Below are positions 20,701 to 43,849 of a stretch of DNA of 64,000 nucleotides, piece by piece. The first letter of the stretch is position 1. The number at the start of each line of letters is the position of its first letter. A program made the position numbers and the translations under genes. Origin of the DNA: Selaginella tamariscina (taxonomy: Eukaryota > Streptophyta > Lycopodiopsida > Selaginellales > Selaginellaceae); contig PUQB01000121.1 in the NCBI GenBank assembly GCA_003024785.1, positions 186,001 to 250,000 on the forward strand, written 5' to 3'. The notes beneath the pieces are model-generated. The model worked only from the letters and a program-made list of their open reading frames with translations, was not told the origin of the DNA and made no database searches.

Positions 20701-21602
20701 CTTCATACTCAAGTTAGTCGAGTTAGCTAACTTGAATACAGAGTGCGCGCTTACAACTAACTAAGGTTTCATGTTATACTTTGTTCAAATCAAGGGACTT
20801 GAATTTAGTAAACTATTCCACCTAATGTTACTTGCAGTAGCGTCATCAAAATATTGTGAACATCAAATAATACTTTGACTACATTGGATCTTTAAACCCA
20901 TTGCTTAACATATTTATCATATGTTAATATTTTACTTTCTATCGTATTATAAGTTCATCACCATAGTCTGCTTTGGAGTTACACTCTGGAAACACGCACT
21001 ATAATGAGAGCTTATTTTACAACTTCTGTCAGAATGTAGTGTTCACTCTTATGTTTGAATATGCCCCTTCTCCGAAGTCAAAGACGCACTTCTGAACATA
21101 AGTCTTTCCCCATTTGACACTATTGCTGAACCATATTGAATCTTGACCTAAGCCAAAACTCAATGGACACTGTCTGTTTCCAAATCATGTGTTATCCCAA
21201 ATTCAAACACTTAAAGAAAAAGAAAAATTTTCAATAATGTGCAGACTTAGGATATCACAAGACCCACCTCACAAGACTTAGTTTGTAAGCCAGAACAAAC
21301 TAACATGCCATGTCTTGTGAAGTATATGGTAAAGTAACCTAGACACCATAAGGTAAAGTAACCTGGCATACAACTTGGAAGTTGCCTTTCAAGTGCTACC
21401 TTTGACATTCGAGTCCTTAACCCACACCCACTTAAGAAGTAGGTGTACTCTAAGAGTTATAGATCTCAGGACTAACTCTCTACGCAAAATTCAGACATTA
21501 GCCAAAGTGATAGAGTACTTCAAGAATTTAGAACTAACTAAACCCTAAAACACATACACTTTAGGCAATCCTGCTGACCGTAGAGATGGCTCTGATACCA
21601 AT
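17776..21602 (-). other. Internal region of the LARD-like element, no gene recognised
   Basis: 3.8 kb without a long frame. The part nearest 17.8-18.05 kb resembles the old fragment at 2.7-2.99 kb. The longest frames (18,391-18,636; 20,410-20,595) carry no retroelement motif. The primer-binding site is at 21,583-21,600 (plus strand gagatggctctgatacca). Confidence 0.65.
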
Positions 21603-23400
21603 TGTCAGAGTTTTAACCCAAAGGGCCAACACGTGGCAACACGTGGCTGCCAAGTGGCCATTCAGCGTCATCACCCTGTTTGAGCAACACTAAGTCTTCT
21701 AAAATACCCCAAGAGTCTGACTCTGGGCCCAATTAGGCAAAAGAATTAAAGTCCTACCCTAAGTCCCCTAGAATGACCATCCCCTAAACCTAGAGGCCCA
21801 ATTAGGCAGAAGACTTAGAGTCCTACCCTAAGTCCCCTAAAATGACCATCCCTTGAACCCTAGAGGGTAACCCGGGTAGACTTTAGGATCCTGTCCCAGT
21901 AGACCTAGACAGGCTCATGCCCTAACCCCACAAAGGAGATGTGTCTCACACATACCCTCATGACAGAGTCAAGGCATCGTCACTTACCCCTTAAGGAATC
22001 ACCCTCATTCGGGAATACAACCCCTTTAGGGTGACAAGGGGTACCCTAAACGCGACTAACCCCTAAGGGTTTGAGTGGCCAAGTCATACCCTAGACCTAG
22101 GGCTAGTACTTAGTGAGGACACGAGTGTGCACCGTAGGTGGACACGAGTGTTTTGCTAAGCAAACTCCCTAAGGCTAGGTTTGGATAACCCTAAGTACAT
22201 GACCTTGCGAGTGCCTTACAAAAGGGCTTCTGCTAATGAGCTTAGGTTGTTCAACCCCTGGATTCCAAGGAGAACACTCCCCTAGCCAAGTGTGCCAAAG
22301 CACACCTAGTTACGAGACTTAACCTCCCTTGAGCGGATGCCCAAGGCTTAGTACCCTAGTGCAAGCACAAGCATGCATGTTGGCTAGAGTATCCAACCCC
22401 TTAGCGACAAACCCATGACACAACCCAAAGGGCATGCCTTGGGCTTTGTATCGCGTGACGTCTAGCCCAGTGTCACATCTCCATGTGACACTGCCTTCCA
22501 TGATGTGGGCTATCATGCCATAGCCCTTAGATTCAAGAGTTGCACCAAGTACCACAAACGTGGCTCCTAAATGCCAACTCTAGAACCCTCAATGAACCCT
22601 CAAGAACTAGGTAATGTAAACCTGTCAAACAAGATCCCACGCCCACAGTTGAACAAGGACACGGATGTGCCTTGCTTGGCCGTGAGTGCTATACCTAGCT
22701 TGACGTGGAGGAGGAGGCTGGAGACAAGCCTCAACCTTTATCTCTTGGAACGTGCATTCCGATAAGACCTCCCAGGCATGGATTCGCCAACGTTAAGAGT
22801 AAGCTACCTCGAAGGTGGGACGTACCCCTGGCATCTGGAAGTTAGGGCGGCACAACAGAGGGTTGTGCCTTGACGACACAAGTTAGAGCTTGCACCAGGA
22901 GAAGAGTAACGAGCTCAGTCATGAACCCAGGAACCCTCACTCCTATATACTCTACCTTATTTATGTGACGGAGTCCCCCCCCCCTCTTTTCCTGTATGTG
23001 TAAGTGGGTTGGCACGAAATGCTAGCCTCTTAGATAATTAGATGAGTTTGCACACTAACTCCTACCCCTAAACCCTACACCAAGGGGGTGGGGTTTAGGG
23101 CGTGGGTTAGGGCAACCCTAGGGTTAGGTCAACCCTAGGGGTGTTCCTAACCGTATTTAACATGCCAAACTCATCTTAATTAGGACGTCAAAATTGGGGG
23201 TGAATTTTCTAGAAGGTAAGTGCTACCTTTGCATAGAGTTTCTCACGACATTTAAAGATAGCCAGCCGGACTACCCCTAAACACCTAAGTGCACTAAGCG
23301 GGGCTGTTTCTCACTACATCTAGGGTTTGTCAACATAGTATAGTAGGTAACAATAGTCAACGTCCAAAGTAAAGGGTCGAGTCATAGTAAAACTATGACA
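21603..23400 (-). repeat. LTR of the LARD-like element (5' LTR in its own orientation)
   Basis: About 1.8 kb, the partner of 15,996-17,775. It is the upstream LTR, as the tRNA-Met primer site adjoins it at 21,583-21,600. The plus-strand start is 'tgtcagagttttaaccc' and the end 'aaaactatgaca'. Confidence 0.85.
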
Positions 23401-25020
23401 GTCTAGCTTGCAAAGGATGTGGACAACGATTTTAAGCTCACATGGTTGAAGCCTCTGAACGGAACAACAGTGGAGGAGATGGATGCGTTAGCTAATTTGG
23501 TGATTGATGACAAAGCAAATTAACAACAATAGTCTCACCTTTCCTTTTCATTTCAAGGTAATGGAGTTGAAGACAATTAGACATTTCAAATAGGGGTTGG
23601 GAATACACTGCCATAAATTGGGTTGGACTTCGGCTTTAACATGCAAAGAGGTCAGCAAATATTTGCAGGTGACAGACGATGATATGTTTGTCTAATGGGT
23701 AAATCAATCAGAAGATCTGGACAAGAATTTATTGCACGCCAATGTCAAAAAGGAGAACATCGTGATGATGCCTTCTCTTATGGCAATCCTTCAGTAATGG
23801 AGAACCAAGTTGAACCTAATAAAGGATAGTATGAATCATGACAAGTCTTATAAATGTTTATTGTCAAAGTTGAAAACGTTATAAAGCAACATCACTGCTT
23901 GTAGGAAATCTTTTTAAATGTTTGTGATGGATCGGCATGTATTAAAAAATTCATTTTCAAATAGGGTGCTAAAAGATTTGGTAGAAAAGCTTAGCCGTGT
24001 AAGCATATACAAAGAAGGTATTTATTATTTAATTTTTGCACACTTACCTAATACCTACATCTTCATGTATTTATTTTTAATTTTTGCTCATGTCACCGAT
24101 ACCTTTGCCTTAATTTTTACCAAGAAGAATAGACATTGTTGAACTGGATTTTACATGAACGATGTTGATCCCAAGTGTATTAATATAGTTGTTCACTTGG
24201 TTGTCAACAATGCACCAGACAATTTTAAACTTTCAAACAACTAGCCAGACATCTACCTTCACTCCAACGGGCCTGAACCTCCATCTAATACCAAGATGAA
24301 TGTATTTGGTAATGTACGTTATCCAAACATTACAAGTCAAGATGCACGCAACATCCTCAACTTAATCAGGGGTCCTCCCAATGACGCATGGGTTTTTTTA
24401 TTACTGCACTAAGGGTTTCGTCTTGAAGGAGTGTTACCTCTGAGATACATGTGTGTTTGCCATTGAAAAGGATAAGACCATGGTTAAAGACTTAAATAAG
24501 TGGATAGAGAGGTTCTCAACTGACTACCTCAACAAACCCATACAAGAGTAGTTCCCTCATGAAAGGAGGAATCCAATTCAATGTCGAAGTCTGAGGATGA
24601 TCTTGAATCAAATATCACAGTAGATGACGTGGCTGCTGACGTGGGTGATGACAGCTGAGGTGTATATAGTGTTTTGATGTAGTTAGAGAGGTAGCTAGGC
24701 GGTGTAGAATGTAGAGAAGAAAATCGAGGAATTGTTCGTTGTATTTTGCCCCATGAATAAACTTTTAACATTCCTTCATATATCACAGTAGAAGTTATCT
24801 CAAGGAGCATAAAATTTTTAATTACTTTGTTGAACATGAAAACATTAGCAGAAGAAACCAAAAATGTCGAACAATTTCCCAAGCAGTTAAAACCTTCTTC
24901 GCCCCGCTCAGATGATAACAATGAAAATGAATTATTAGAGTGACAAATAGTTGTAAATGAGTGTAACATAAGGCATTTTTGTATATTTTGTGTATATTTG
25001 TACAAAAAATAAATTCCCAA
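23401..25020 (+). pseudogene. Copy A: second part of the ParB-like/methyltransferase-like gene
   Basis: It resumes exactly where the LTR element ends and follows 36.23-37.75 kb of copy B. Examples are 'acatggttgaagcctctgaa' (23,440) and 'gtcaccgatacctttgcctt' (24,094), followed by a worn version of the RGPHSDAWVFDYCTRGSVLK region at 24.37-24.43 kb and the VEKDK word at 24.46 kb. Numerous stops and small deletions. The minus-strand frame 24,529-25,020 is only a shadow. Confidence 0.72.
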
Positions 25021-25139
25021 GCACTAAAGAAGCTTTTAGTTCAAACATGGTCACACATTAACAAGGTAAATAAGATATCTTGGTAATTATAATGCCAGCT
25101 AACAATTATTTTACAAATATAATAAAATAGTTGAGAATA

Positions 25140-26233
25140 AGGATTTTTAACAGTGACATGAGGTAAGAGAAGGGTATGGTGAAAATTACTTGTGCCACAT
25201 GTCAGAATGACAGAGTTCATGCAGGAAATGTACACCAATATAGTTCAAAAATCGTCACTATGGGGACCACTTGTCTTGGCAAGTTGCATAAGGAGTTTAT
25301 TGTTGAGGTTTTTGAATCACTATCTTTAACTCCTTCAGTTTCTGCATCACCATTTCTATCACCTTCATAACCACTTTCTCCAACACTTACAATATCTAAA
25401 TCTTGCAAAGATGATGTATAAGTAAATGCTAAAGAGATCGGCAACAATATAGTGTTAAAAGATGAATGTGAAAGGGACCAAACAAGTGAGCTACATACCA
25501 TTTAAGAGGCAACGTTGCGCCTTGTTACCCATGGTCATATTGTATTACTAGATGTCAATGGCGTTCTGCTTCATTGACAAAGGCACGAGGAACAAGGAGT
25601 TTTCATTCATTATTATGGTAAATTTTGACATGATATTATTTTGTGTCCAGGGTTGAACTGTCTCTTTTAAAAGTTTAAGGAGATGGGTGTGTTTGTGAAG
25701 ATTTAGTCATGTATGCAATTTCACAACCTGACATTGCTGTTGAATTTGCTCAACAAGCATTGTAGTCTTACAAAAGAGGTGATTCATAAAGATTGAATTT
25801 TTGACCAGTGATTTTGTTATAAACCTCTCAAATACTACAATGTGAGAAAGAAAATTAAGCCATACTTATTTAAGAATGAAAGAATAATTAGGCTTTATTA
25901 GGAAATCAATCAATTAAGAATAATGAAAAAAGCAAATATCTCAATGGTAGATGACTTTCCTTAAAAGGCTATTTTTAATTAAAACATTGTTTATATCCAT
26001 CTAATCACTTTTGATCCATATTTTTATATTAATACCATGGATGATTTAATGAATTACTTGGACACGTGCCTTAGAAAGAAGAATTTTAAAAACTTTTGCA
26101 AGCAACATCCATCATATAAAACATACCCTAACTTTAAGTTTTATTTTTAAGTTTTATAAATTAAAGGAGAGTAGTCAGTTGCTCTACAATGTTATTATCA
26201 AAGAACTTCATTTTTCAAATAAACCTATATATG
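25140..26233 (+). pseudogene. Copy A: FCP1/NIF phosphatase-like gene remnant, 5' part
   Basis: It parallels 37.85-38.88 kb of copy B. It still shows VTHGHIVLLDVNGVLLH (25,523 on) and a better-kept piece reading YKPLKYYNVRKKIKPYLFKNERII at 25.81-25.88 kb (given here as the two halves YKPLKYYNVRKK and IKPYLFKNERII). VDDF, equivalent to the HAD motif VDDS, follows near 25.95 kb. Copy B interrupts it after 26,233; the 3' remainder is at 39,356 onward. Confidence 0.7.
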
Positions 26234-26256
26234 CAAGTTGTAATTAAAATGGGCAT
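26234..26256 (+). repeat. Copy B left terminal inverted repeat
   Basis: Reads CAAGTTGTAATTAAAATGGG and onward to GGCAT. It pairs with the inverted 39,333-39,355. One internal base differs from copy C's equivalent end at 55,729-55,751. Identity to C continues well beyond the terminal repeat ('ggctatagtcccatttccta'). Confidence 0.88.
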
Positions 26257-26739
26257 GGCTATAGTCCCATTTCCTAATAATTAGCAATTTTAGCTATTTA
26301 ATTAGCATTTTTTAATATTAAAGAAATATTCTTTAGAATATATATTTGAAAACAGAATATTCTTTAGAATAATCTATTTTGTATTTGACCCTTTAATAAA
26401 TTATAATTCATTGAACAAAAATTAATAACATTATAAAAATAAAAGTATTAAATTATATAATATATTGCCTAATATAACAATTAAGGAAGAGCATAAGAGG
26501 TACATTATATAAATATTGATGTTGTTATTAAAATATTAATATTTAAATATAACATTATTAATTAAAAATTTGTAGTAGTAATAATATATATATAATATAC
26601 AAAATCCTATAATAATATAGTCAATCTTCCATATCGTTTTTTAAATTTATATAGTTAAGTAAACAATTTGGTACTTTATTAAAGAGTTATAATAATTATG
26701 AATATTAAATATATGATATTTTATAATTTTGTAATTGCT
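26257..26739. other. Copy B: left subterminal AT-rich region
   Basis: No gene. It contains several AGAATATTCT-type palindromes (26,325-26,380) and AT tracts, and matches 55.26-55.73 kb in copy C in inverse orientation. A possible place for transposase-binding subterminal motifs; that is an inference. Confidence 0.6.
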
Positions 26740-28610
26740 TTAAGTTCAGAAAACATACATTCCCTTGCAGTTTTGTTAATCGTGACTTTATCAACGCTTC
26801 TTTACATTCACCCATATCGAATGGATTTAACATTTATAAAACATGCTGGGTCTTTTTGATTGGGAGACCATGTTTTCTCTAGGCATCCATTATATCTTTC
26901 GCTCTCCTTCTCGTGTCGCCTTTTTTGTGGTTTGAACCATGCAACCTTAACCATGCAACCTTAACCATACTATTTTTGTGATTACTTCAGGTGTGTCGAT
27001 AATTTAACCCATCCAAATAGGCTGATTATATGACGCATCTGGAGTAATGAGAACCATCATTAGTTTTTGAAGATCCTGGTAGCAATCAAAGTATGCTTTA
27101 GGTTTTTGGTTCCTTTGTCCAACAAAGTGTGGGGTTTGCACTTCCACATCACTACTGGCTTCTATGTCGTCTATGCTCAGTGATGTCATTTCAATCTCCT
27201 CTCGCCACCTTGTTTTAGGCCAAAAAGGGTGTTGCAATTCTGTACTTGTGACAGTAGGCCCTTCCAATTCTCGAACAATAGTCTCCCAATAGTCGACCAC
27301 ATGCTTATATAGTTTTGAGTAACCAGTTGCCTTATCAGAATTCTTTGGCATCGATTTTGAACCCATGCCACATATTTTTTAATGCCATCAATAATAACCT
27401 CTTGTTCCTTGAGCTGGGCACTCAATGGAATAGGGTCTGGTTGTCCTTCTGGGAGAAGTGGCTTTCCATTCTCTCCACTTTTGAAGAGCATTAACCCCTC
27501 TTTTGGTAACCTCCTGCTCTGATGGCCGTAACTTGTACTGCATAATAGGTATACCATCTCGTATTGAGAAAAGAATTGTAGCGGCACAAGGTGACCAACT
27601 AAAGAATCACTCCCCTCTTTTATATACTCGAGAAATTTTTTGAAGTCTGGCACCTCAATCACAAGCAAAGCACAACTTTTTTTGGAGATGCATTTTTCAA
27701 AAAAATTCATCATATGTGGTAAGGTAAGTGCACTTGTCTTTTTTGTAGAGTTGGAGACCTTGCTAAAGAACGCATCAATATCTTCATGAGTGTGACCAAC
27801 CATAAGAAAACTGAGCGCGATTGTCTCAAACACACCTTTGGCAACAAGCATTGACAAGTATGCTAGCACATATCTAGAAAATAAAAGTAAGTATGAGCTT
27901 GAGAAACCCTTAAGTAAAATGATTTACCTATTTTTGTTCTCGCTTGCACAATTATCCATCTGTAAAAGCAATGACGAGGAAGCTTCATCTGCAACCCATG
28001 AATCGCCTTTTTCTTACAATAGGACCAATGCAAGGAACCTCTTCAAATTATGAGTTGTTCTTCTGGGTTGTTATTATTGAAATCCAACCCAGAATATGTT
28101 GAACCATCTTGCCGTCTTAATTCAGATGTTCGCCACCTCATGAGGGATCCATGCCATTAGGTGAAACCTTTGTCACAATTACACCCACGAAGTCGGACCC
28201 TAGTTTCTCTTCTGACACTGCTTCCATTGGATTTATAGCTGTGATGATTCCTCTCCCAACCTCAATGTCATGAAGAAAGAAAATCACCTCATCCATCACA
28301 GCAAGCAAGCCATCATCTGGAAAACTCGTGCTACTGTTTGTTTGTGACTCTGTATTTTTGTGTCAGCCTTGACTTCATCCAAATTCCACAATACATGAGA
28401 ACCCTCCTCAAATTCCATTTTCCGGAACCTCAACATGCTTGAAATGGTGTTCACCCATATGTACACACAAGATCCTTGGGCAATATTGTGACATGATGCA
28501 TTATCATCTCAAACTTCCACAGTTCCAGTGCCAACTATCTCGTTGTTTCGAAGAAGACATACTTTATTTCCAGTATTATACATATTGTCCTGCACATAAA
28601 TAATTGTGTT
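26740..28610 (-). pseudogene. Copy B: transposase-like gene with internal deletion
   Basis: The minus strand encodes VLAYLSMLVAKGVFETIA (27.8 kb) and FLMVGHTHEDIDAFFSKVS, then the long C-terminal part (KSMPKNSDKATGYSKLYKHV; PHFVGQRNQKPKAYFD), all close to copy C. Upstream, QMDNC-like sequence (27.95 kb) runs straight into sequence equivalent to 52.74 kb of copy C, so about 1.27 kb, including the first catalytic motif, is missing. The intron before YVLAYL (GT-AG, about 54 bp) is kept. A stop falls at 27,001-27,003 after QPIWMG; in copy C this frame continues to the end near 55,249. The 5' part (28.08-28.6 kb) matches 52.13-52.69 kb of copy C. Confidence 0.8.
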
Positions 28611-28737
28611 ATTTATGATATCTGTTTATGCAATATTTCTAAAAAATCAGAACTGCGGTTGCTTAATAAGATGCATGTGCAATAATACATAATTATGTAT
28701 AGAGATAATATCTCATGCTTTATTAATACAACTAATG

Positions 28738-29465
28738 GGCAGGATTAATCCTGCCCGCGACTCCCTCAGGAATGCGGCGTCTTGGGAGGACTGGCGGGAT
28801 TAATCCCGCCGCCGATTCCCTCCCGCGAGGAAGAATCGGCGAGATTAATTCCGCTGCCGGATCTTCCTCGTCGGAGAGAGGCGGCGGGATTAATCCCGCC
28901 GCTGACTCCCTTCGACGAGGAAGAAGCGGCGGGATTAATCCGCCCCGGATCTTCTTCGTCGGAGATGCGGCAGGATTAATCCCGCCGTGGACTCCCTCCG
29001 ACGAGGAAGTACCGGCGGGATTAATCCCGCCGTCGGATCTTCCTCGTCAGAGAGAGGCAGCGGGATTAATCCCACCGCAAATCCCTCCGACGAGGAAGAG
29101 GGGGCGGGATTAATCCCGCCCACAACTCTGACGATGGGGAATAGGCGGCGGGATTAATCCGCCCACAACTCTCTCCGAGCTATGATTTCAAAGAGATCTC
29201 GGGATGAATCCTGCCCATAAATATTTAAAACAGGGAAGTGGTGGCGAGATTAATCCCGCCACCCCTTCTCTGCCTCCTAAAATGGTTGGCGAGATTAATC
29301 CCGTAAATAACTCTTTCTAATAAATTCAAATAACTCTTTATCAGTTGAGAGATTTATTGGCGGGATTAATCCTGCCGCTCTTTTTAAGAGGCGGAGAAGT
29401 ATTGCCCTGACTAATTCTGCCATATCTATCAAAGAGATGGTGACCGGATTAATCCCGTCGCCCCA
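28738..29465. repeat. Copy B: palindrome array 1, upstream of the transposase gene
   Basis: Some fifteen units of the perfect 18-bp palindrome GGCGGGATTAATCCCGCC or close variants, spaced about 30-60 bp. Spacers are themselves similar ('ctccctccgacgaggaag', 'gatcttcctcgtcggagag'). GC content is far above the surroundings. The array starts about 130 bp upstream of the transposase 5' sequence. Open frames read across it on both strands give only repeated GGINPA or AGLIPP words and are not genes. Confidence 0.92.
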
Positions 29466-30850
29466 GCTAACCGATAATATTAAGTTAGAAGTATATTTAA
29501 ACGGATAAATCCCTAATAAAATATATTGTAATCCTAATGCATTCTTAAATCCCTAAATTTTAAAATTTAAGAAGAGAATGTAAGAAAGTGAATCTTTATA
29601 AATATATTTAAATTTGTTTATAATACTTACTTGTAAACAGCACTGAAGGCGCTGTGCTTTCCTATAAACAATAGCGCACCCAATTTAGTGTCGTTCCTGA
29701 GCTGATTACTAAAAAGAAAAAAGAAAATCTGAAGAGTGAAAAATAAGAGAATGAAGAAACCCTTGTCGGAGAAAGAACCAGATCTGAATTTGAGTGGGAA
29801 ATTAAATGCATTTTTAAATTTACATGTCAGACCGACAATACTTATGTCAGAAATTCAAAATTTTTGAAAATAACATAAAAGAAAATTTAAAATGAGTTGA
29901 AACAAATAACCGACAGTCTAACATATATACTCTCCAATTCCAATAAGTGTTTTAAAATTGCATTTAATGTCATTCAAGTGATTCAAGCTATTTAATATTA
30001 CAAAATTTTTGTAATTATTCTACATTCTTAATATTCAAGTATATATTATTAAGTTTATACTATATATAATATACACTAATACAATAAATAAATGGATAAT
30101 TATTATGTATCATTTAAAATATATTCATAGTTGTTTATTATTATTATTTTCTTAATTACCGAGTAATTAATTTACATTTCCTACTATTAATGGGATATCT
30201 TTATTATTTTCTTAATATTATTCCAATATTAAACCTGATTATCATAATTAATTAGTCTTATTCTTAATTATCTCAGTAATTATTCTACATTGTATATATT
30301 AATGGGATTTTCTCATTAATTTGTTATTATTTCAAGAATATTCCTATGTTAAACCTTATTATCAATATTAAATTAATATATATTATTAAACTATATATTG
30401 ACTATATATTAGATAAAATGATGTATTATTATGTATAATTTTAAAATATGTTCATAGTGTGTATATTAATATCATTTTCTTAATTACTTGAGTAATTAAT
30501 CTTCTTTATATTAATGCGATATTCTTTATTATTTTCTTATTATTCCAAGAATATTTCAATATTAAACATGATTATTATAATTAATTTAGTTAATTATTTT
30601 CAGTATTCTTGATCTACATTTGTATATATTAATGGGTTTTCTCAATTAATTTCTTATTATTCAAGAATATTCTAGTGTTAAACCTATTATCAATATTAAA
30701 TTAATATGGCTATATATTAGATAAAATCATATATTATTAGTATAATTTAAAATATGTTCATAGTGTGTTTATTAATATTATTTTCTTAATTATTCGATGT
30801 TTGTTTTGCACACATATATAAACACAATCATAAATTTATATATACACATG
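29466..30850. repeat. Copy B: AT-rich spacer with a roughly 320-bp tandem repeat
   Basis: No gene. 'taaaatatgttcatagtgtg' or close variants recur near 30,116, 30,442 and 30,742, giving a tandem period of about 315-325 bp. Within each unit 'attaatggg' and 'caagaatattc' words repeat. Copy C shows the same structure at 50.08-50.76 kb. Confidence 0.7.
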
Positions 30851-32279
30851 CACACGCATTAGAAAGCACTTACAGAGACACATATGCACACACATGCACA
30901 TTGCCCTAAACCAAACTTGAGAAATTATATGACATCATATTATCATCTTCAACGCATGTATGATCTATATGTACTCAGTCTGTGTGTATGTAACACATTA
31001 AATTTACACAATGTAATATATATGTATATCTGTGTGTTTACACATGTGTATGTATATATGTGTACTAATATATGCAATGTGTACAATTTTCATTTGTTAA
31101 CACTCTCTCTCTTCTCTCATACATACACAGTGTCACCATACATAATCCCTTTTCTCATACATACACACCATGCATGATCATGATCCATAATATGTAGCCT
31201 GTCTCTTCTCTTATACATACACACCATGCATGATCCATAATATGTACTGATGTTACATATTATGTAATATGTATAATGTATATTTGTGTATAATATGTGT
31301 ATGTATATGTGTATTAATATATGCAATGTGTACAAAATTAATTTTTAACACTCACTCCTCTCATACATACACACCATGCATGATCCATCCTAACCTTAAA
31401 CCCTATGTAACACATTGAATTTACACATGTAATATGTATGTATGTCTGTGTGTATACACGTGTGTATGTATATGTGTGTATTAATATATGCAATGTGTAT
31501 GAATTTAATTTACTAACACTCTCTCTCTTCTCTCAAACATACACACCATGCATGATCCATAATATGTATTGTCTCTCTTCTCTCATACATACACACCATG
31601 CATGATCCATAATATGTACTCTGTCTCTCTAATTAATATGTACTATGTATGTCTATGTGTATATATGTATCGCTGCATGTGAAACTTTAACACTCTCATG
31701 GACACACACATGTTAAACCCCTGCATGATTTTTATTCTTGAGGTGTATGTGAAACACCCATAAGCTGATAATAATGAAAGAATATTCGTTTAGGGCGAAT
31801 CTATAGTTTATTCTTTTTAGGGTTTAGGTATATTCTTAAAAGGAATATTCGATTAGGGTTAATATATATTCTATTCCTTTTAGGGTTTAGGTATATTCCT
31901 AGGTTTCAAGAAGTAAGGCGGCGGAGGCGGCGGCTGTGAGATCATATCTCTTTCTCACACACAGGTGAGATCTCTCTCTCTCTCTCTCACGCACTCCTTT
32001 ATTTATTTATTTTTATTCACATATATATTTATATGTGTGTGTATTTTAATAATAATTTAGATCTTTATCTCTCGCACACACACGCACACTCGTATACATA
32101 TACACACACAGATATATATTATATATAATATATATATATATATATTTATCTGTGTGTGTTTGTGTTGTATATCTGTATAATTTTATTAATTTATTAATTT
32201 TATCTCTTGCACACGCACGCACACTCCTGTTTATCTGTATGATTTTATTTGTTTCGCTCACACACACATACTCACGATA

Positions 32280-32343
<64 letters not shown>

Positions 32344-32654
32344 CATGTAATATACATACATATATTATGTGTACCAGTATTTATATAATTCTATTTATTT
32401 ATCTATCTCTCGCACACACACGCACACTCCTGTATATATATGTGTGTGTGTGTGTGTTTGTTTATCTGTATGATTTTATTTGTTTCACACACGCATACAC
32501 ACGATATACATATACATATATACATACTATGTACATATATACATACATATATTATGTGTACCAGTATCTGTATAATTTTATTTATTTATCTATCTCTCGC
32601 ACACACACGCACACTCCTGTATATACATATACATATACATAAATATACATATAC

Positions 32655-32686
<32 letters not shown>

Positions 32687-32835
32687 ATCTGTATAATTTA
32701 ATTTATTTAGCACACACATACGATATACATATACATATGCATATGTGTGTGTGTATCAGTATAATTTTATCTGATTTGTCTATCTCTGTGCCACACACGC
32801 ACTCTCACATATACATATAAATATATATATGTTGT
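30850..32835. repeat. Copy B: minisatellite and CA/TG microsatellite field
   Basis: 31,100-31,640 holds several copies of a roughly 50-60-bp minisatellite with 'catacatacacaccatgcat' and 'gatccataatatgta'. 31,790-31,910 has three 'tagggttta' words. 31,960-32,835 is CA/TG-rich and includes a pure (AC) run of about 19 units at 32,288-32,327. A 'ctctcgcacacacacgcaca' motif recurs about five times. All frames here are low-complexity. Confidence 0.88.
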
Positions 32836-34235
32836 AGCGGCGGGATTAATCCCGCCCCTATATGGTGAGACGTGTGTAGCGGTGGGATTAATCCCACCGC
32901 TATATGGTTAGACCCTCGGCGGCGGATTAATCTTGCCGCCCTTTAGGCAGGCTATTTGGTTAGCCTCATGAGCGGTGGGATTAATCCCGCTGCCCATGAG
33001 GCTAACCGAAGAGCGACGGGATTAATCTCACCGGCCATGGGCTGCATGCTAGGCCTAAGCGGCAGGATTAATCCCGCCGCCTACGCATGCCCTGCGCAAA
33101 ATCCGGCGGGATTTATCCCGCCGCTAATGGCTTGTCTGAAGGGTCTAGGCGGCGAGATTAATCCCACTGGATTTCGCATAGGGCATGGGCGTCCGGCGGG
33201 ATTAATCCCGCCGGCCATGGGCGTCTGGCGGGATTAATCCTGCCGGCCATGGGCTGCGTGCTGGGCCTAGGTGGCGGGATTAATCCGCCGCCTACGCATG
33301 CCCTGCGCGAAATCCGGCGGGATTTATCCCGCCGCTAATGGCCTGTCCGAAGGGTCTAGGCGGCGGGATTAATCCCGCCAGATTCCGCACAGGGCATGGG
33401 CATCTGGCGGGATTAATCCCGCCGCCCATGGCTACGTGCTGGGCCTAGGCAACGGGATTAATCCCGCCGCATACGCATGCCCTGCCTGGAATCGGGCGGG
33501 ATTTATCTCGCCGCCAAAGGCCTGGCTGAAGGGCCTAGGTGCGGGATTAATCCCGCCGGATTCCGCACAGGGCATTGGCGTCCGGCGGGATTATCCGCCG
33601 CCATGGCGCGTGCTGAGCCTAGGCGGGGATTAATCCCGCATACGCATGCCCTGCCCAATCGGGTGGGATTATCCCGCCGCCAAAGGCCTGAAGGGCCTAG
33701 GGCGGGATTAATCCGCTGGATTCTGCATAGGGCATTGGCGTCCGGCGGGATTAATCCGCCCCATGCTGCGTGCTGGGCCTAGGCGGCGGGATTAATCCCG
33801 CGATTCAGGGCATTGGTCGGCGGATTAATCCGCGCCTAGGGCCGAGTGAAGGCCTGGGGGCGGGATTAATCCCGCCAGCCTTCAATGCCTGTTGGAGGAA
33901 TGAATCCCCACCCTTTTTTTTCTCCATTGGTGAGTCGGACCAATCCCAAACGTTTCTGTCTGAGACGTAGAAGGTTTACAACATACCAATGGAGGACTGG
34001 GAAGGGTGGCGAGATTCATTTAACCATCCCTTACATGGTGGGCGAGATTAATCCCGCCCCTTTCTGGAGTCACTGAAGGGGTGTGCCAAATAAATCCTGC
34101 CAGTTCTCTCTGAGACCGAGAAGGGTGGCAAGATTAATTCCGCACTCCCGTTCAAGGCCTCCAGAAAGGTGGCGAGATTAATCCCGCCCACTCTTTCAGG
34201 AGGCATTGAAGGGGTGGCGAGATTAATCCCGCCGC
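32836..34235. repeat. Copy B: palindrome array 2, upstream of the cargo genes
   Basis: The largest array: roughly 30 or more GGCGGGATTAATCCCGCC units. In 33.05-33.85 kb they form a higher-order repeat of about 170-210 bp that contains four palindromes and the landmarks 'cgcatgccctgc', 'ggcctgtccgaagggtctag', 'ccgcacagggcat' and 'ggccatgggctgcgtgctgg'. Many half-worn units ('cgggatttatcccg') are present. It ends about 110 bp before the 87-bp hairpin. The frames inside it (33,436-33,970 and others) are repeat artefacts. Confidence 0.92.
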
Positions 34236-34347
34236 ACCTTCCATGTGAATATATATGTGTATTAGTATATATAAGTTGCATATCTCATTTTATTTACTTT
34301 TATCATCTTATCATAATATTTCGAGTAAAAGCTAGGAATCTATGTAA

Positions 34348-34434
34348 AACTGTCCAGAGCTCACATTTGTGGTGGTTCTAAAACGAAATGTTATCTTTCT
34401 TTTGCACTAGCACAAATGTGAGCTTTGGACAGTT
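34348..34434. repeat. Copy B: 87-bp hairpin upstream of the cargo gene
   Basis: Two 24-bp arms (34,348-34,371 and 34,411-34,434; aactgtccagagctcacatt against its complement, two mismatches) flank a loop of about 39 bp. Copy C has the same structure at 46,916-47,002, with changes mostly in one arm. It sits about 140 bp before the start codon at 34,574. It could be a 5' leader stem-loop or a tiny fold-back insert fixed in the family. Confidence 0.82.
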
Positions 34435-34573
34435 AATTCTTACTTCTCTCTGTGTATTATTTTTGTATATTCGGGTTTATACAAGTGTGTGTGCGTTTTT
34501 ATATGATTTGTATTCATAGTGTATTATTTTGCAGAAGGACGATTTAATTAAACAAGGAGATCGAGTCATTAGT

Positions 34574-37500
34574 ATGGAGTCGTCGTCAAATTCTGGGTAA
34601 GAATTAAAAAAAATCTGTTATACTCGGATATGTGCTTGAACTAATCATTTTTGTATTCAGATGTGGAATTGAGGTGACATTAAGACGAGAGCAGGAGAAA
34701 GATGGGCAGGGGGATTCTGGAATCAACTTGGCCATATTTCAAACTAAACGGGAAGCGCATTGGAACAACCATGGTTGCTGTCAAACTAACCTCTGTCACA
34801 TCGCATGGACAAGCAAAACAATGGAAAGTGGGTGTGCTAGTCAAGCATCCGAAAGCATGCTGTGAACCCAGATTGAACGATGCTCGACACATATGCCTTG
34901 TTCCATCCAATGTCACGTTCTCGGATCCAGAGGTCGCCAGTTACAACATTAATTTCGGGTGGTTTTGTCGACTTGTGGATAATGACGTTCACGTGTTCAC
35001 TAATGATGTTGACCTGGAGTTCTTCTTCAACTCAACGAAAGCCCATCTATGGAGGGGATCCATCTGGATGTCTACTTCGAAGATCTTCAGACTCATCGAG
35101 TAGGTGTATTTCAGGAGATATTGCTTCACAATACAGAAAATCACAAGTCCTCTTCACATTGAAGAAGAACACAGCGACATCATAAGGAGATTGAGAGGGT
35201 GGCTTGGTCTCAGGTTCTTTACAGATCACGTTCAATTTGCTTAGAAATTTCGGGAGCTGGAAGAGTGTGCCGAGAACATTAGAACAGCAAATCGGGGATC
35301 ACACATGTTGATTCGGATCGTAGAAGAAAATCATCATCGTTTTGTCAGCTGCACCTGTGGCATCCCATGCTGCAATAAGCCACAAGGAAATGATGTTGGA
35401 TGATAGGATTTAGTGTAGGGTTAAGTATTGCAGCGTCAACCCAAACTTCAATTACAGGCCACTCAACAGGAACGTGTAGCTGAGCTCATGGAGAAGATGA
35501 AGGACGACAATTCTTACACCGTTCCACATAATGCTGTTTTGTGCGCATACTACGAGAGAAACAAAGGCGCTGACAAAGTGTGGATCACAACACCGGAACA
35601 AATGAGGAAGGTTCAGACGGAGAATAGAAAATCAGTCAAGTACTACATCATTAGTGGCCAACACAATAACGGCAGCCCAACGACTTCTCGACGAACACAA
35701 CAAAGGAACGATGGCAACAAAACTTTCCGAGCATACCCGTGAGAAGCTGACGAAAAGATCGGCGTTTTTAGCAAGCCGAATCTCACAATCGAGCAGTACC
35801 ATAAGTTATCGGCGGAATGGGACGCTGCAGACACCAACCACTACAACAGCAAAATATGGGAGAAGTTCAAACACACGCGAGCCGTGTGGGAATCTCTTCA
35901 GCGACCACAAAGAGCTACCGCAGGGAATACACAATCTGCGGACTACCGGGTAAGCAAATTGTTTGGGCGGGATTTATCTCGCCGGTATATTAATCTGTCT
36001 TTTTTCAGAGAGTTGAAGAAATTGTAGCAGTTGATTTTGCCCAGGTGGGCGGGAAGGAAACATCCTTTTTGATGATGTTGATTTCTTGTCCCGAGGATAG
36101 GATCTTTGCCAAATGGTTGGGGATTATGGAATCCTTTGCAAAAGGAACACTGAAGAAGAAGCAGACAAGTGAAGGGAGCCCTCAGAAAGTCTGCAAAGAA
36201 ACCCAGTAAGACGCCGAAGGCTAAGTCTGTTCAATCTATAAAGGATGTAGACAACGATTTCAAGCTCACATGGTTGAAGCCTTTAAATGGAACAACGATG
36301 GAGGAGATGGAAGTCTTGGCTGATTTGGTGATTGATGGCAAATTACAATTAACAACAGCAGCCCACCTCTCCTTTTCATCTCAAGGCAATGGAGTTGAAG
36401 ACGGTCAGGCACTTCAAGGAGTGGTTGGGAATACACTGCCACAAACTGGGTTGGACCTTGGCTTCAACATACGAAGAGGTCAGCAAATATTTGCATGTGA
36501 CAAACGATGATATGCTTGTCGAATGGGTGAATCAATCGGAAGATCTGGGCAAGAATCTATTGCACGCCAACGCCAAAAGGAGAACATTGCGATGACGCCT
36601 TCTCTTATGGCAGTCCTTCAGCAGCGGAGAACCGAGTTGAACCTTATAAAGGAGGATGCTACGAATCACGACAAGCCCTACAGATGTTTGTTGTTGATTC
36701 GGAGACTTTATGGGGTACCATCACTGCTTGTAGGAAACCGTTTCAATTGTTCGTGATGGATCGGCGGGTGTCAAAAAATCCTTCGACAGACAGGACTAGA
36801 GGATTTGGTGGAGAAACTTAGCCGTGCAAGCATGTACAAAGAAGGTATTTATTATTGAATTCATACTTGCACTCTTGACTGATATCTACGTTTTCAGGTA
36901 TTTATTTCTTGATTCTTGCTCATGTCACCGATACCTTTGCCTTCTCCTTTGCCAAGAGGAATAAACATCGTTGGACAGGATTTTATATGAATGATGCTGA
37001 TCCGAAGTGCATTGATTCGGTTGTTCACTTGGTTGTTAGGAATGCGCCAAACAATTTCAAACTTCCAAATGACTGGCCAGGCATCTGTTTGCACTCCAAC
37101 GGCCCTGAACCTCCATCCGATACACCGATAGCTGAGAGTGACGTATTCGGCAATGTACGTTATCCAAACATTACAAGTCAAGCGGCACGGAGCATCGTCA
37201 ACTTGATCAGGGGTCCTCACAGTGATGCGTGGGTTTTTGACTACTGCACTAGGGGGTCCGTCTTGAAGGAGTGTTACCTTCGGCATACATGTGTGTTTGC
37301 CGTTGAAAAGGATAAGACCATGGTTGAGGACCTGAACAAGTGGATAGATAGGTTCTCAACTGACTACCCCAACGAATCCATAAAGGAGTATTTGAGAAAG
37401 TTCCCTCCAGATAAGTGCGATAGCTCTGAAGACGAATCTGGTTCAATGTCGGAGTCTGAGACGAACTTCAATCAGATATTAGACCGGAAGTTATCTCGAG

Positions 37501-37643
37501 GAGTACAGAACATTCACACTCCATTACCCATGGAAACATCAATAGAAGATACAGAAGATCTTGAACCATCTCACAAGCGGCTTAGACCTTCTTCGCCTCA
37601 CTCAGAAGGTAATAGCGAAGAAGAATTGTTAATGAGTTCTTAG
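34574..37643 (+). pseudogene. Copy B: spliced gene with ParB-like and methyltransferase-like parts
   Basis: I propose the start ATG at 34,574 (MESSSNSG). GT-AG introns at 34,597-34,660, 35,950-36,008 and 36,845-36,897 each rejoin the frame. N-terminal part: unknown, with KHPKACCEPRLNDARHICLV and FGWFCRLVDNDVHVFTNDVD. Middle (35.4-35.75 kb): NP-x-FNYRPLNQERVAELMEKM, then SVKYYIISGQH and, after a frame change, TAAQRLLDEHNKG, the layout of a ParB/sulfiredoxin-like N-terminal domain (box II G-x-H). C-terminal part (36.9-37.64 kb): WVFDYCTRGSVLKECYL followed by VFAVEKDK, like motifs I and II of a class I DNA methyltransferase, then an acidic Ser-rich tail to the stop at 37,641. At least three frame changes are present, so this copy is dead. 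The methyltransferase call is tentative: no clear DPPY-type motif was found. Confidence 0.6.
35966..35983. repeat. Single palindrome unit inside an intron of the cargo gene
   Basis: A near-perfect unit (ggcgggatttatctcgcc) lies alone within the 59-bp intron 35,950-36,008, far from the arrays. Copy C keeps it at 45,349-45,366 and copy A has a worn version near 15,783. Confidence 0.8.
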
Positions 37644-37910
37644 AGTGAGAATAGTTGTAAATGAGTGTAACATAAGGCATTTTTGTATATTTCGTTTATA
37701 TTTGTACAGAAAATAAATTCTCAAGGATTAATGAAGCTTTTAGTTCAAACATGGGTCACACATTAACAAGGTAAATAATATACCTTGATAATTTTAAGGT
37801 CAGCTAATTATCATTTTGCAGATGTAATGAAACAATTGAGAACATGGATTTTCAGCATTGCATGAGGTAAGAGAGGGGTTTGGCGACAATTTCTTGTGCC
37901 ACATGTCAGA

Positions 37911-39072
37911 ATGACAGAGTTCATGCAGGAAATGGATAATAATGCAGCTCAAAACATCGTTACCATGGGGGCCACTTCAGTTTTTTCATCATCATTTTTA
38001 TTGGCTTCAGTTCCGAAATCAATTTCTTCAGCGCATGCAATATCTGAATCTTGTAAGGATGATGTACAATTAAATGATGAAGGGATAGGCAACGAGATAG
38101 TGGCAACGGATAAATGTGAAAGGGAGCAAACAAGTGATTTGCAAAGTATTCAAGAGGCAACGCTATCCATGTTACTCATGGCCATATTGTGTTGTTGGAT
38201 GTCAATGGTGTTCTGCTTCATCGACAAAGGCCCGAGGATAGAAAAAAGAAATCAAACAAGGAGATTTCATTCCTTGTCATGGTAAATTTCGATATGATAT
38301 TATTTTTTCCAGGGTTGGATCGTCTCTTTCAAAAGCTTAAGGAGATGGGTGCGCTTGTGGGGATTTGGTCATGCATGCAGATTCATAACTTAACACCGCT
38401 GTTGAATTTGCTTAAGAAACATTGTAGTGTTGCAGAAGAGGTGATTCGTAAAGATTGGATTTTTGACCAGAATATGTTATAAACCTCTCGAATTTCACAA
38501 TATAAAAAGGAAAGCAAGCCATACTTCTTCAAGAATGAAAGAATAATTGGGACTCATGGGGAGATCAGTCGCTTAAGGATAATGAAGAATGCACATATGT
38601 TAGTGTAGACGACTCTCCTCAGAAGGCTATGCTCAACCAAAACATTGCTTGTATTCATCCAATCACTTTCGATCCATATTCTGATACGATATCATGGATG
38701 AGCTAGTGAACTACTTGGATACGTGCCTCAGAAAGAAGAATCTCGAAAATTTTTGTGAGCAGTATCCACCGTATCATACATTTCCTGAAGCTTTTCTTTC
38801 TCGTGATTTGAATTTTATAAAATGAAGGATAGCAACCGGGTTTATAATATTATTCTTAAGGAACGTCAGTTTTTAGATGAGCCTTTATGCAGACCTTCTC
38901 TTATCACATCTTATGTATTAACAAGGATGGCAACTCCCAATTGCATTCGTGAGAGTGTTAGTGGTGGCAACAACATCAAGATATTGACCAAAATGATTTG
39001 ATTAATCCGGAGAGTGATGATTTAGACAAAATGAGAAGATTTCTCTGTATGATAGGAAGAAAGTATTTATAA
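37911..39072 (+). pseudogene. Copy B: FCP1/NIF-type HAD phosphatase-like cargo gene
   Basis: The start ATG at 37,911 (MTEFMQEMDNN) directly follows a possible 3' splice site. The N-terminal 85 residues are Ser/Glu-rich and low in structure. Next comes VTHGHIVLLDVNGVLLHRQ, the HAD motif I with DxN in place of DxD, as also seen in plant FCP1-like proteins. LDRLFQKLKEMGALVGIWSC is motif II of the FCP1 homology domain. VDDSPQKAMLNQN is the DDS motif, and the end is LENFCEQYPPYHTFPEAF and DDLDKMRRFLCMIGRKYL. FCP1 relatives remove phosphate from the RNA polymerase II C-terminal domain. Several frame changes (near 38.17, 38.47 and 38.69 kb among others) break this copy. No stop-to-stop frame spans the domain. 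Known family, unexpected place: inside a transposon. Confidence 0.7.
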
Positions 39073-39332
39073 AAAATTAACATGTTGATAAGAAAATGAT
39101 TTCATTTGTAATTATGTTTGATAGTATTTCTTATTATTGTAAACTATTTTTAGAATAATATGAATATTCTAAGATATTTTAGGAATATTCCTTACTAAGT
39201 AAGGTTATTGAAGGATTAATTAATTAATTAATTAATATTTAAGGCTTAATTACATATTAATTAAATGATTAATTAATAATTAAAACTTAAGTATTAATTA
39301 GTAATTTATTTTATATTCCCATTTTCACGTAT
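39073..39332. other. Copy B: right subterminal AT-rich region
   Basis: No gene. GAATATTC-type words (39,165-39,200) are followed by 'taattaattaatt' tracts. It matches 42.17-42.42 kb of copy C inverted and 39.58-40.00 kb of copy A. Confidence 0.6.
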
Positions 39333-39355
39333 CATGCCACTTTAGTTACAAAGTG
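39333..39355 (-). repeat. Copy B right terminal inverted repeat
   Basis: On the minus strand it reads CACTTTGTAACTAAAGTGGC, the partner of 26,234-26,256. The shared core is TTGTAACTAAA. Confidence 0.85.
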
Positions 39356-40025
39356 CATATATGCACTCATGGTCTTATTAAAGATTACGTATTAACAAGG
39401 ATAACAACTCCTAACTGCATTCTTAAGAGTGTTAAGTAATGGTAACAGTATAAAGATATTGACCAGAATAATTTCATCAATATAGAGGGTAATGACTTAG
39501 ACAAAATGAAAAGATTTCTCTATATGGTTAAGGAGAAACTAATTACAAATAAATTTACAAGTTGATAAGGAAATAATTTCATTTGTAATTATGTTTGATT
39601 ATGTCTGATAATAGTTTTTAATTATTGTAAAATATTTCCACATTGAAGAATAACATGAATATTCTAAGATATTTTAAGAATATAATATAAAATATAATAA
39701 TTGTTTTATCATATAAATATTCTTTATATGTATTTCAGGTTGTAATTTTTATTAAGTATATATTGACATAAAGATTATATTTTTATTCATTTCTTTGTTG
39801 CATATTAATTTAAAAAGAATAAAGATATATTTTCTAGTGATGATAAAATTAATTTTATTAACACTAGGTAAGGTTAATTAAGAATTAATTTATTAATTAA
39901 TTAATAATTAGGACTTAAATATATATTTATTAATAATTAATTAATAATAAGAACTTAAGTATTAATTAGTAATTTATTTTATATTCTCATTTTCATGTAT
40001 CATACCCATTTTTAGTTACAACGTA
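39356..40025 (+). pseudogene. Copy A: 3' end of the phosphatase-like gene and right terminus
   Basis: Copy A resumes after copy B. 'cgtattaacaaggataacaa' and 'agacaaaatgaaaagatttc' match 38.92 and 39.03 kb of copy B, that is, the phosphatase-like C-terminus (DLDKMKRFLYMV). AT-rich sequence follows, then the terminal repeat at 40,003-40,025 (minus strand TACGTTGTAACTAAAAATGG). Confidence 0.75.
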
Positions 40026-40379
40026 CATGTATACAAAAATGTTGAGTACGTCCAACAGATGATGTGGTTCTGTCCAAGAGGAATAGATTGTTTAAAGCGA
40101 CCATATGATCATAATCTACAAGATCGAATTCCACATGTCCTAGATATATGGCTAGTACAAATAGGTACAAACTTGACTTCTTGTGACGTGTAGACACCAT
40201 GGGGAGTGCACTTAGTGTAAACTATTTTTCTAGGGTACATGCACTCAAGGGGTTAAAAAACCTTGGTGAGATACTTGTACATATATGCTATTGGGTAGGA
40301 TTTGTGTGTAAGATATTAAGTTACTGTGGATCTTAGAGCAGGGGATCTACTGTTAGGGTGGGGCTAGACCGCATGGCTA
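40026..40379 (+). other. Flank right of copy A, no gene recognised
   Basis: One short plus-strand frame fragment reads YVQQMMWFCPRGIDCLKRPY, then DHNLQDRIPHVLDIWLVQ (40,044-40,170). I do not recognise it. It could belong to the transposase-like gene that follows or be unrelated decayed coding sequence. Confidence 0.35.
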
Positions 40380-41516: not shown

Positions 41517-42148
41517 ATGGCTGATTTTGAGCACTTTCAACGCGAGCACCAAATGTTGCTCATGAGCTGGCCACTTTGCGCCAAGTGGTCACCGATTTGC
41601 AAGGTTCCACCAACGCGGCGCATGCAGCTGCTAATGCATCCTCCAAGGCTGCTGCACAGGCTCTCTCTCAGGCATCGGTGGTTCACTCTTCATTGAACTT
41701 TTCTTCGGAGCCAAAGATCAGCATGCCAGAAAAGTTCAGTGACAATCGTGCCAATTTCCAAGGTTTCTTGAATCAGATCCGGCTCTTGATCCACATGTAA
41801 CCACGCCGCTACTCGACTGATGCACAAAAGGTTGGTCTTTTGGCATCCTTACTAAGTGGATCTCCATGGGCTTGGGTTGCCCCCTTGCTGGAGCATGATG
41901 ACCCATTAATGGAAGACTTTGAAGGTTTCATGGCTGCCTTTGGAGATCTTGATAAGTACCGTTTCGCATGCACGAAGTTACGAAAGCTCACTCAAGGATC
42001 CCGACCAGCTTCTGTGTATGCATCCGAATTTCAGCAACTTTGCACGAACATTCCATGGGACGAGACTGCATTGATCGAACTTCCGTTTTGGGTTGAGGAA
42101 TGACGTGAGGACCTTCTTCTTACATTATCGAATGCCCAAACATTAATG
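41517..42148 (+). mobile_element. Gypsy fossil: gag, N-terminal part
   Basis: It starts about 90 bp after the LTR. Wording such as PEKFSDNRANFQGFLNQIRL and LLEHDDPLMEDFEGFMAAFG is typical of chromovirus gag. Copy C is inserted at its downstream edge; gag wording resumes at 55.75 kb. Confidence 0.8.
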
Positions 42149-42171
42149 CACGTTGTAACTAAAGTGGGCAT
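42149..42171 (+). repeat. Copy C left terminal inverted repeat
   Basis: CACGTTGTAACTAAAGTGGG continuing to GCAT. It corresponds to the cargo-side end of copy B (39,333-39,355 inverted). Confidence 0.87.
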
Positions 42172-42434
42172 GATATGTAAAAATGGGAATATAAAATAAA
42201 TTACTAATTAATACTTAAGTTTAATTATTAATTAATTATTTAATTAATATGTAATTAAGCCTTAAATGTTAATTAATTAATAAATTAATCCTTCAATAAC
42301 CTTACTTAGTAAGGAATATTCCTAAAATATTTTAGAATATTATCATATTATTCTAAACATAGTTTACAATAATTAAAAATACTATCAAACATAATTACAA
42401 ATGAAATCATTTTCTTATCAACAAGTTAATTTTT

Positions 42435-43591
42435 TTATACATACTTTCTTCCTATCATACAGAGAAATCTTCTCATTTTGTCTAAATCATCACTCTTCGG
42501 ATTAATCGAATCATTTTGGTCAATATCTTGATGTTATTGCCACCACCTAACACTCTCATGAATGTAATTGGGAGTTGCCATCCTTGTTAATACATAAATA
42601 TGATAAGAGAAGGTCTGCATAAAGACTCATCTAAAAACTAACGTTCCTTAAGAATAATATTATAAAGCGCCTGGTTGTTATCCTTCATTTTATAAAATTC
42701 AAAATCACGAGAAAGAAAAAGCTTTAGGAAATGTTTGATACGGTGGATACTGCTCACAAAATTTTCGAGGCACGTATCCAAATAGTTCACTAGCTCATTC
42801 ATGATATCAGTATCAGAATATGGGTCGAAAGTGATTGAATGAATACAAGCAATGTTTTGGTTGAGCATAGCCTTCTAAGGAGAGTCGTGTACCACTAACA
42901 TCTATGCGTTCTTCATTATCCTTAAGCGACTGATCTCCCCATGAGTCCCAATTATTCTTTCATTCTTGAAGAAGTATGGCTTGCTTTCTTTATTTATATT
43001 GTAAAATTTGAGAGGTTTATAACATATTCGTTGATCAAAAATCCAATCTTATGAATCACCTCTTTTGCAACACTACAATGTTTTCTTAAGCAAATTCAAC
43101 AACAGTGTTAAGTTGTGAATATGCATGCATGACCAAATCCTCATAAGCGCACCCATCTCCTTAAGCTTTTGAAAGAGACGATCCACCTGGACAAAAAATA
43201 ATATCATATCGAAATTTACTATGACAAGGAATGAAATCTCCTTATTTGATTTCTTTTTTCCTATCCTCAGGCCTTTGTCGATGAAGCAGAACACCATTGA
43301 CATCCAACAACACAATATGGCCATGAGTAACATGGGATAGCGTTGCCTCTTGAATACTTTGCAACTCACTTGTTTGCTCCCTTTCACATTTATCTGTTGA
43401 CACTATCTTGTTGCCTATCCCTTTATCATTTAATTGTACATCATCCTTACAAGATTCAGATATTGCACGCGCTGAAGAAATTGATTTCGGAACTGAAGCC
43501 AATAGAAAATGATGAAAAAAACTGAAGTGGTTCCCATGGTAACGATGTTTTGAGCTGCATTATTATCCATTTCCTACATGAACTCTGTCAT
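42435..43591 (-). pseudogene. Copy C: FCP1/NIF-type HAD phosphatase-like cargo gene
   Basis: Minus-strand start at 43,591-43,589 (MTEF). A long clean stretch reads SVPKSISSARAISESCKDDV and onward to EATLSHVTHGHIVLLDVNG and VLLHRQRPEDRKK, so in this copy the HAD motif I follows the N-terminal tail in one frame. Then come DRLFQKLKEMG and IWSCMHIHNLT, a worn version of the DDSP region, and near the end DIMNELVNYLDTCLENFVSS, where a small part present in copy B (RKKN) is lost. Stop at 42,435-42,437. Frame changes occur in the C-terminal half. Function as inferred for copy B: possible CTD-type phosphatase. Confidence 0.7.
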
Positions 43592-43849
43592 TCTGACATG
43601 TGGCACAAGAAATTTTAGCCAAACCCCTCTCTTACCTCATGGCAATGCTGAAAATCCATGTTCTCAATCGTTTCATTACATCTGCAAAATGATAGTTAGC
43701 TAACCTTAAAATTATCAAGATATATTATTTACCTTGTTAATGTGTGAATAAAAGCTTCATTAATTCTTGAGAATTTATTTTCTATACAAATATAAACGAA
43801 ATATACAAAAATGCCTTATATATACACTCATTTACAACTATTCACCATT

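Follow-up and report, generated by a model that had tools for sequence, protein, structure and literature searches.

In the 64,000-nucleotide stretch of Selaginella tamariscina DNA analysed here (assembly GCA_003024785.1, contig PUQB01000121.1, positions 186,001 to 250,000; hereafter the window), three related copies, A, B and C, of a large DNA transposon are present, which we interpret with reasonable confidence as a high-copy cut-and-paste element of ~14.6 kb, probably of the Sola superfamily, that may carry its own control module. The element is real and occurs in high copy number in the genome. It is bounded by inverted ends, encodes a DUF7869 protein presumed to be its transposase and two accessory (cargo) genes, and contains arrays of a perfect 18-bp palindrome (GGCGGGATTAATCCCGCC) in front of both gene blocks.

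The three copies were recognised by self-comparison of the window, in which the end motif is found five times with at most three mismatches (shuffle mean 0.04; 0 of 100 shuffles reached five). A preceding reading of the letters alone (the sequence-only reading) had described three copies of one plan, B and C being whole from end to end. For B and C the common plan holds, including two palindrome arrays and the repeat-rich core between them, and both copies possess both ends. However, their genes carry frameshifts and deletions, and B is without the transposase-gene segment matching C 52744-54010. Copy A is not a separate left-hand copy, as had been thought, but hosts B and resumes past it to 40028; it is broken, retaining from near 8636 transposase residues 1-164 only. 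Since B inserted within this older copy, its empty site is available for comparison. The copies and their boundaries are:

26231..39358, unstranded: copy B from end to end, transposase end left and cargo end right, nested in copy A
26227..26230, plus strand: left target duplication of B, ATAT, from flank comparison and empty-site alignment
39359..39362, plus strand: right target duplication of B, ATAT, from the same two comparisons
26231..26257, plus strand: terminal inverted repeat of B at the transposase end, 27 bp
39333..39358, minus strand: terminal inverted repeat of B at the cargo end, one base shorter
42146..55754, unstranded: copy C from end to end, inverted relative to B
42142-42145 and 55755-55758: target duplication of C, ATTA (TAAT on the other strand)
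8636..26230, unstranded: left segment of the older copy A, its left end lost, with a long terminal repeat (LTR) retroelement within
39359..40028, unstranded: right segment and right end of copy A, beyond the nested B

The LTR retroelement inside copy A (15996-23400) has a 5-bp duplication, GTCTA, and LTRs that are 93.5% identical.

The window's own assembly (300.7 Mb, 1,391 contigs) was searched for further copies, and the exact end motif was found 2,507 times genome-wide, its reversed control not at all. Pairing was analysed for the 100 end matches that were listed. Among these, 26 convergent neighbour pairs occur, 19 of them at 10-19 kb (10.2-18.1 kb), and every one of the 19 joins a CAAGTTG end (transposase side) to a CACGTTG end (cargo side); three of the seven wider convergent pairs are of equal type, and divergent neighbours at 10-19 kb amount to four pairs. 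Ends across the genome share the boundaries of B and C, and each of the 13 copies examined contains motifs of both cargo genes, so that the description of the transposase and cargo blocks as parts of a single element withstands the refuting conditions that the sequence-only reading had set for it. Ten of the 19 pairs, picked from the 14.4-15.0 kb class, were taken whole and measure 14,410 to 15,001 bp, which suggests a full length of ~14.6 kb. In aligned blocks, nine of these whole copies are 95.0-97.9% identical to the remaining one, C91, B and C ~91%, and A 80%. Recent activity of the element is probable because copies are 95-98% identical. If two ends are counted per full element, the family extrapolates to ~1,250 elements, equal to ~18 Mb or 6% of the assembly, complete copies being fewer because only 38 of the 100 listed ends fall in such pairs. 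The palindrome gives a second count: it occurs 27,128 times genome-wide (control 0), and with 255 exact units in 12 copies this corresponds to ~1,280 elements, in agreement with the count of ends.

The flanks of 21 copies (the 19 listed pairs together with B and C) define the ends and the target duplication. CAT opens the right flank in 21 of 21 copies and ATG closes the left flank in 18 of 21, so that these bases belong to the terminal inverted repeat; the ends thus take in three more bases on each side, and the repeat, given earlier as about 23 bp, measures 27 bp (ATGCAMGTTGTAACTAAARTGGGCATG). Outside of ATG...CAT, an exact 4-bp repeat is found in 11 of the 21 copies compared with 8 of 420 mismatched flank pairs. 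Among the first 12 copies, such a signal is absent at every other length and offset, except for 2-bp matches within the ATG/CAT ends or the 4-bp repeat. When the joined flanks of B were aligned to C91, the 4-bp model scored best (250), followed narrowly by 3 bp (246), 8 bp (245) and the others (237-244). The target duplication is 4 bp. The duplication of about 8 bp first proposed for B was rejected, as 4 bp scores higher at the empty site, if by little; the B flanks are alike over eight bases partly because the insertion site is palindromic.

The transposase comprises ~1,020 amino acids encoded by two exons, with the splice sites of C taken from the sequence alone:

26745..28583, minus strand: transposase gene remnant of B (DUF7869), located by tblastn, residues ~203-631 of ~1,020 missing
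52146..55249, plus strand: transposase gene of C, two exons, the first ending at 54068 and the second starting at 54123, frameshifted

The Pfam family PF25273 (DUF7869) matches pieces from both B (27186-27923, E 2.3e-24) and C, and it is the sole Pfam family above cut-off there and in three relatives. In total, 172 database relatives were found; PF25273 is present in 120 of the 120 listed, and the named organisms among the listed relatives are the bryophytes Physcomitrium, Ceratodon and Riccia. In a 73-row alignment, D192, D195, D353, D393 and D395 (P0001 numbering) are kept in no fewer than 99% of those rows in which the column is present. The order and spacing of these residues suit a DDD transposase, with D192/195, D353 and D393/395 as the predicted triad. 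The sequence-only reading had named hAT, KDZ (Kyakuja-Dileera-Zisupton), MULE, CACTA and DUF7869 proteins for comparison, and of these the Pfam profiles matched DUF7869 and none of the others. hAT elements duplicate 8 bp of target and CACTA elements 3 bp. In the transposase pieces and the three relatives, Pfam gave no hAT dimerisation domain, only weak and unrelated matches below cut-off, no KDZ model and no transposase-domain match of MULE or CACTA type, and the duplication of 4 bp likewise speaks against each of the four families, that of MULEs being given as 7-12 bp in the available text of a review (PMC10741241). A search of viral contigs for DUF7869 returned 192 pattern matches and no relative. 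In the genome itself, no other DUF7869 family was found among the 150 candidates scored, the 10 loci given all aligning to the present family; diverged families may have been missed because 4,250 candidates had passed the first look.

It is the published description of Sola, rather than its sequence, beside which the element can be set, and on this footing we consider its membership of the Sola superfamily probable. According to the review text available, Sola elements have a DDD transposase and 4-bp target duplications, measure mostly 2-9 kb with some >15 kb, and are present in Physcomitrella (PMC10741241); Sola1 of Physcomitrella is listed in the accessible part of a second review (PMC9033089), and Sola as a whole word is absent from a further source (PMC9247546). 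Of these traits, the 4-bp duplication is seen here at the empty site and, as an exact repeat, in 11 copies out of 21 (among cross pairs, in 8 of 420), the other ten copies lacking it. The element further resembles Sola, as far as that description reaches, in its putative DDD-type pattern, short inverted repeats, large size and moss occurrence, the latter referring to Sola elements themselves and here to the bryophyte relatives of the transposase. In contrast, accessory genes and palindrome arrays such as those of this element are unmentioned in the Sola review text at hand. That DUF7869 might instead define a new superfamily of DNA transposons unrelated to Sola appears possible but rather doubtful: Pfam labels the domain as of unknown function, no paper of the literature searched names it, and the transposase pieces and the three relatives gave no match to any further transposase model, whereas the 4-bp duplication, the DDD pattern, the large size and the presence in mosses coincide with what the two reviews, in the portions consulted, report for Sola (PMC10741241; PMC9033089). 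The earlier hint of an undescribed superfamily thus loses its support, given that DUF7869 occurs in named bryophytes and that duplication, DDD pattern, size and Physcomitrella match this partial description. The element is likely a Sola-like variant whose accessory module is conserved and whose palindrome arrays accompany the family.

The accessory module consists of two cargo genes. The exon model of cargo gene 1 was taken from copy C91 with splice sites from the sequence alone, and this gene reads as four exons encoding ~1,000 amino acids:

34574..37643, plus strand: cargo gene 1 of B, its four exons at 34574-34596, 34661-35949, 36009-36844 and 36898-37643, frameshifts in B
43978..46775, minus strand: cargo gene 1 of C, with an internal deletion and frameshifts, limits approximate
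37911..39072, plus strand: cargo gene 2 of B, resembling FCP1/NIF-type phosphatases but with DVNG at the DxD site, frameshifted, limits approximate
42447..43391, minus strand: cargo gene 2 of C, the part matched by tblastn

Cargo 2 resembles the FCP1/NIF (NLI interacting factor-like) phosphatases of Pfam family PF03031 in possessing the domain and a DDSP motif. The model is matched by the composite of B (E 4.7e-9) and, over most of its length, by C91 (E 5.8e-12, 46 bits at a cut-off of 21.8), and frames of 329-375 amino acids from stop to stop are found in five of the ten whole copies. DDSP is seen with a loose pattern in 12 of 13 copies. FCP1-type enzymes carry a DxD catalytic motif, and loss of the second Asp is expected to impair phosphatase activity. 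Unlike in these phosphatases, DVNG stands at the DxD position of cargo 2 in all 13 copies examined, Asn thus taking the place of the second Asp; among four other NIF loci of the genome, a simple pattern matched L059 alone, which reads DLDETL. Cargo 2 also differs in having no close database relative among 1,018 candidates, and the literature searched for a link between a transposon or transposase and FCP1/NIF contained nothing relevant. The genome also holds many NIF matches above the transposon type (~46 bits), and contigs C549 and C711 carry several of these.

Both cargo genes are under purifying selection. Compared with the old copy A, at a synonymous divergence (dS) of ~0.5, the ratio of nonsynonymous to synonymous substitution rates (dN/dS) is 0.29 for cargo 1 (95% interval 0.23-0.36, 803 codons) and 0.35 for the FCP gene, cargo 2 (0.23-0.52, 294 codons), and it amounts to 0.62-0.96 in the wrong frames of both genes. 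Among the young copies, pooled over 11, it is 0.18-0.44 for cargo 1 and the transposase exons; these young-copy comparisons are mutually non-independent, and some copy differences may be assembly errors, as frame breaks seen in a single place are frequent. We therefore favour the view that both accessory genes take part in the life cycle of the element and are not chance captures. The opposite view, in which they are passive passengers, i.e., host gene fragments without a role, is improbable: the FCP domain family has many other matches in the genome and the dN/dS of the FCP gene reaches 0.74 among young copies, as would be expected of passengers, but selection at dS ~0.5 acts on both genes, and their motifs persist in all 13 copies examined, the old copy A included, in a stable gene order.

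For cargo 1, a more specific identity was considered and dropped, namely a fusion of a ParB-like domain with an inactive beta-class DNA methyltransferase, with the palindromes as parS-like sites. By eye, YYIISGQHTITAAQRLL resembles ParB box II and DAWVFDYCTRGSVLKECYLRHTCVFAVEKD the motif I region of methyltransferases, and it is indeed the YYIISGQHTITAAQRLL box on which the top hhalign alignment with ParB lies. The best methyltransferase alignment, however, lies elsewhere than at DAWVFDYCTRGSVLKECYLRHTCVFAVEKD; of 40 shuffles each, 7 matched the hhalign score for ParB and 2 that for the methyltransferase, and swapped pairs scored about equally, so that the profile test with these controls was not significant. 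Pfam and NCBIfam gave nothing over cut-off, PHROGs a single weak match of unknown function, and phage searches matches at chance level or none, and we regard this identity as very improbable.

With at most two mismatches, the palindrome GGCGGGATTAATCCCGCC is found 60 times in the window (expected 0.00), always within the copies: 4 times in A, 31 in B and 25 in C. The arrays are placed as follows, one variant unit lying within cargo-1 intron 2 in both B and C:

28738..29459, unstranded: left palindrome array of B, on the 5' side of its transposase gene
32839..34233, unstranded: right palindrome array of B, ending 341 bp before the cargo-1 ATG
35966..35983, unstranded: single palindrome variant in cargo-1 intron 2 of B
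51416..51991, unstranded: transposase-side palindrome array of C
47116..48220, unstranded: cargo-side palindrome array of C

Elsewhere in the genome, 100 listed palindrome places, all on contig C1, form 11 clusters, and for nine of these a listed end or a DUF7869 match lies no more than ~8 kb away, the lists of ends and DUF7869 matches used for this check being partial. The arrays might be inert tandem repeats grown by slippage or gene conversion, as the units lie mostly 44-46 bp apart and their number varies between 33 and 46 in 12 copies (at most three mismatches), as in ordinary tandem repeats. Yet the distances to both gene starts are fixed: in all 11 copies that allowed the measurement (the start mark of B was not found), 150-155 bp separate the first palindrome from the transposase start, and in all 12 copies the last upstream palindrome is 341-386 bp away from the cargo ATG. 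Moreover, the palindromes vary less between copies than the sequence outside them (0.021 versus 0.058 in the left array, 0.038 versus 0.075 in the right) despite containing CpG sites, and circular shifts were as low in 1 of 1000 cases on the left and 8 of 1000 on the right, a test that is not fully independent because the columns were chosen by their match to the motif. An inert origin of the arrays appears possible but rather doubtful.

Three further features were seen in the window. A hAT dimerisation domain (PF05699, E 5e-10) at 3516-4028 is a remnant of another transposon, retroelement pieces with aspartyl protease and RNase H domains are found at 56049-58586, and 40793-41427 and 60024-60620 share a block with 29-bp tandem repeats (TGTCCTGCTCCTGTCTTGCTCCTGGATCC) that is 84% identical between the two places.

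In the mechanism that we propose, the DUF7869 transposase would act on the 27-bp inverted ends and insert the element with duplication of 4 bp of target, its catalysis being predicted. The arrays in front of both gene blocks would most likely be binding sites of a dimeric protein, encoded by the element or by the host, which controls transcription of the element. Conserved cargo and palindrome arrays together suggest that the element may bring its own control system; a regulatory role of arrays and cargo, argued by analogy, is nevertheless held only tentatively. Since one array before the transposase gene, a second before an accessory gene and a unit in the intron of the latter resemble the arrangement in VANDAL21, cargo 1, perhaps together with cargo 2, may bind the palindromes and keep the element expressed against silencing, as VANC does for VANDAL elements. 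This anatomy would also suit a repressive role, or palindromes that are bound by the transposase or a host factor. In its most far-reaching form, to which we give somewhat less credence than to a regulatory role as such, cargo 1 would bind the 27,128 palindromes that mark the copies of the element across the genome, and the phosphatase-like cargo 2, which lacks the usual second Asp, would modulate RNA polymerase II there, so that copies are switched on in trans and host genes stay untouched.

Several observations weigh against this explanation of the element as a Sola-type transposon with a control module. Ten of the 21 copies are without the 4-bp duplication, and none of them misses it by just a single base; these copies may be chimeras assembled from near-identical repeats, or may have recombined with one another. 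The margin at the empty site is small (250 versus 246 for 3 bp). For the 160 transposase codons left in A, dN/dS is 0.70 (0.45-1.20) and is lower in the wrong frames (0.40 and 0.56), so that copy A is uninformative on selection of the transposase, and the value of 0.74 for the FCP gene, pooled over the 11 young copies, is a weak signal of constraint. A composite query for cargo 1 yielded no relative among 6,124 database candidates, and in Pfam and NCBIfam nothing exceeds the cut-off, Pfam giving weak matches below it only; in the PDB, two designed repeat proteins were the sole matches (E 0.00096 at best, a sum over repeats that each score at most 4.2 bits), judged an artefact. The Sola comparison draws on review descriptions, and binding of cargo 1 to the palindromes is suggested by their arrangement.

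What the element would mean depends on these parts separately. The so far uncharacterised DUF7869, present in several named bryophytes, would gain a concrete role, that of a transposase with defined ends and target duplication. If the arrays address proteins encoded by the element, a plant transposon family of an extrapolated ~1,250 copies would possess its own sequence-specific control, and the proposed anti-silencing function would add a second, independently built system beside VANC in a different transposon superfamily, a second case for comparison and a handle on the means by which a genomic parasite remains active where the genome silences it.

Two known systems invite comparison. DNA transposons of fungi (KDZ and others) carry TET/JBP cargo that is thought to counter silencing, according to the text available (PMC12730594), and they are similar to the present element in being DNA transposons with an extra gene; they differ, on the same partial account, in their transposases and in that their cargo is a dioxygenase whereas here it is FCP-like (PMC12730594). 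VANDALs are MULEs. Their protein VANC21 binds a 9-base motif, YAGTATTAY, arrayed in non-coding regions of VANDAL21, and induces methylation loss, as described in the accessible part of the report (PMC5735166). With VANDAL and Hiun elements and their VANC proteins, the element shares an extra gene and a dense short motif upstream of the transposase gene and in introns that evolves as a tandem repeat, as far as that text describes it (PMC5735166). The VANC21 motif measures nine bases and the motif found here is an 18-bp perfect palindrome, and the likeness is one of arrangement, no VANC-like protein having been identified in the element.

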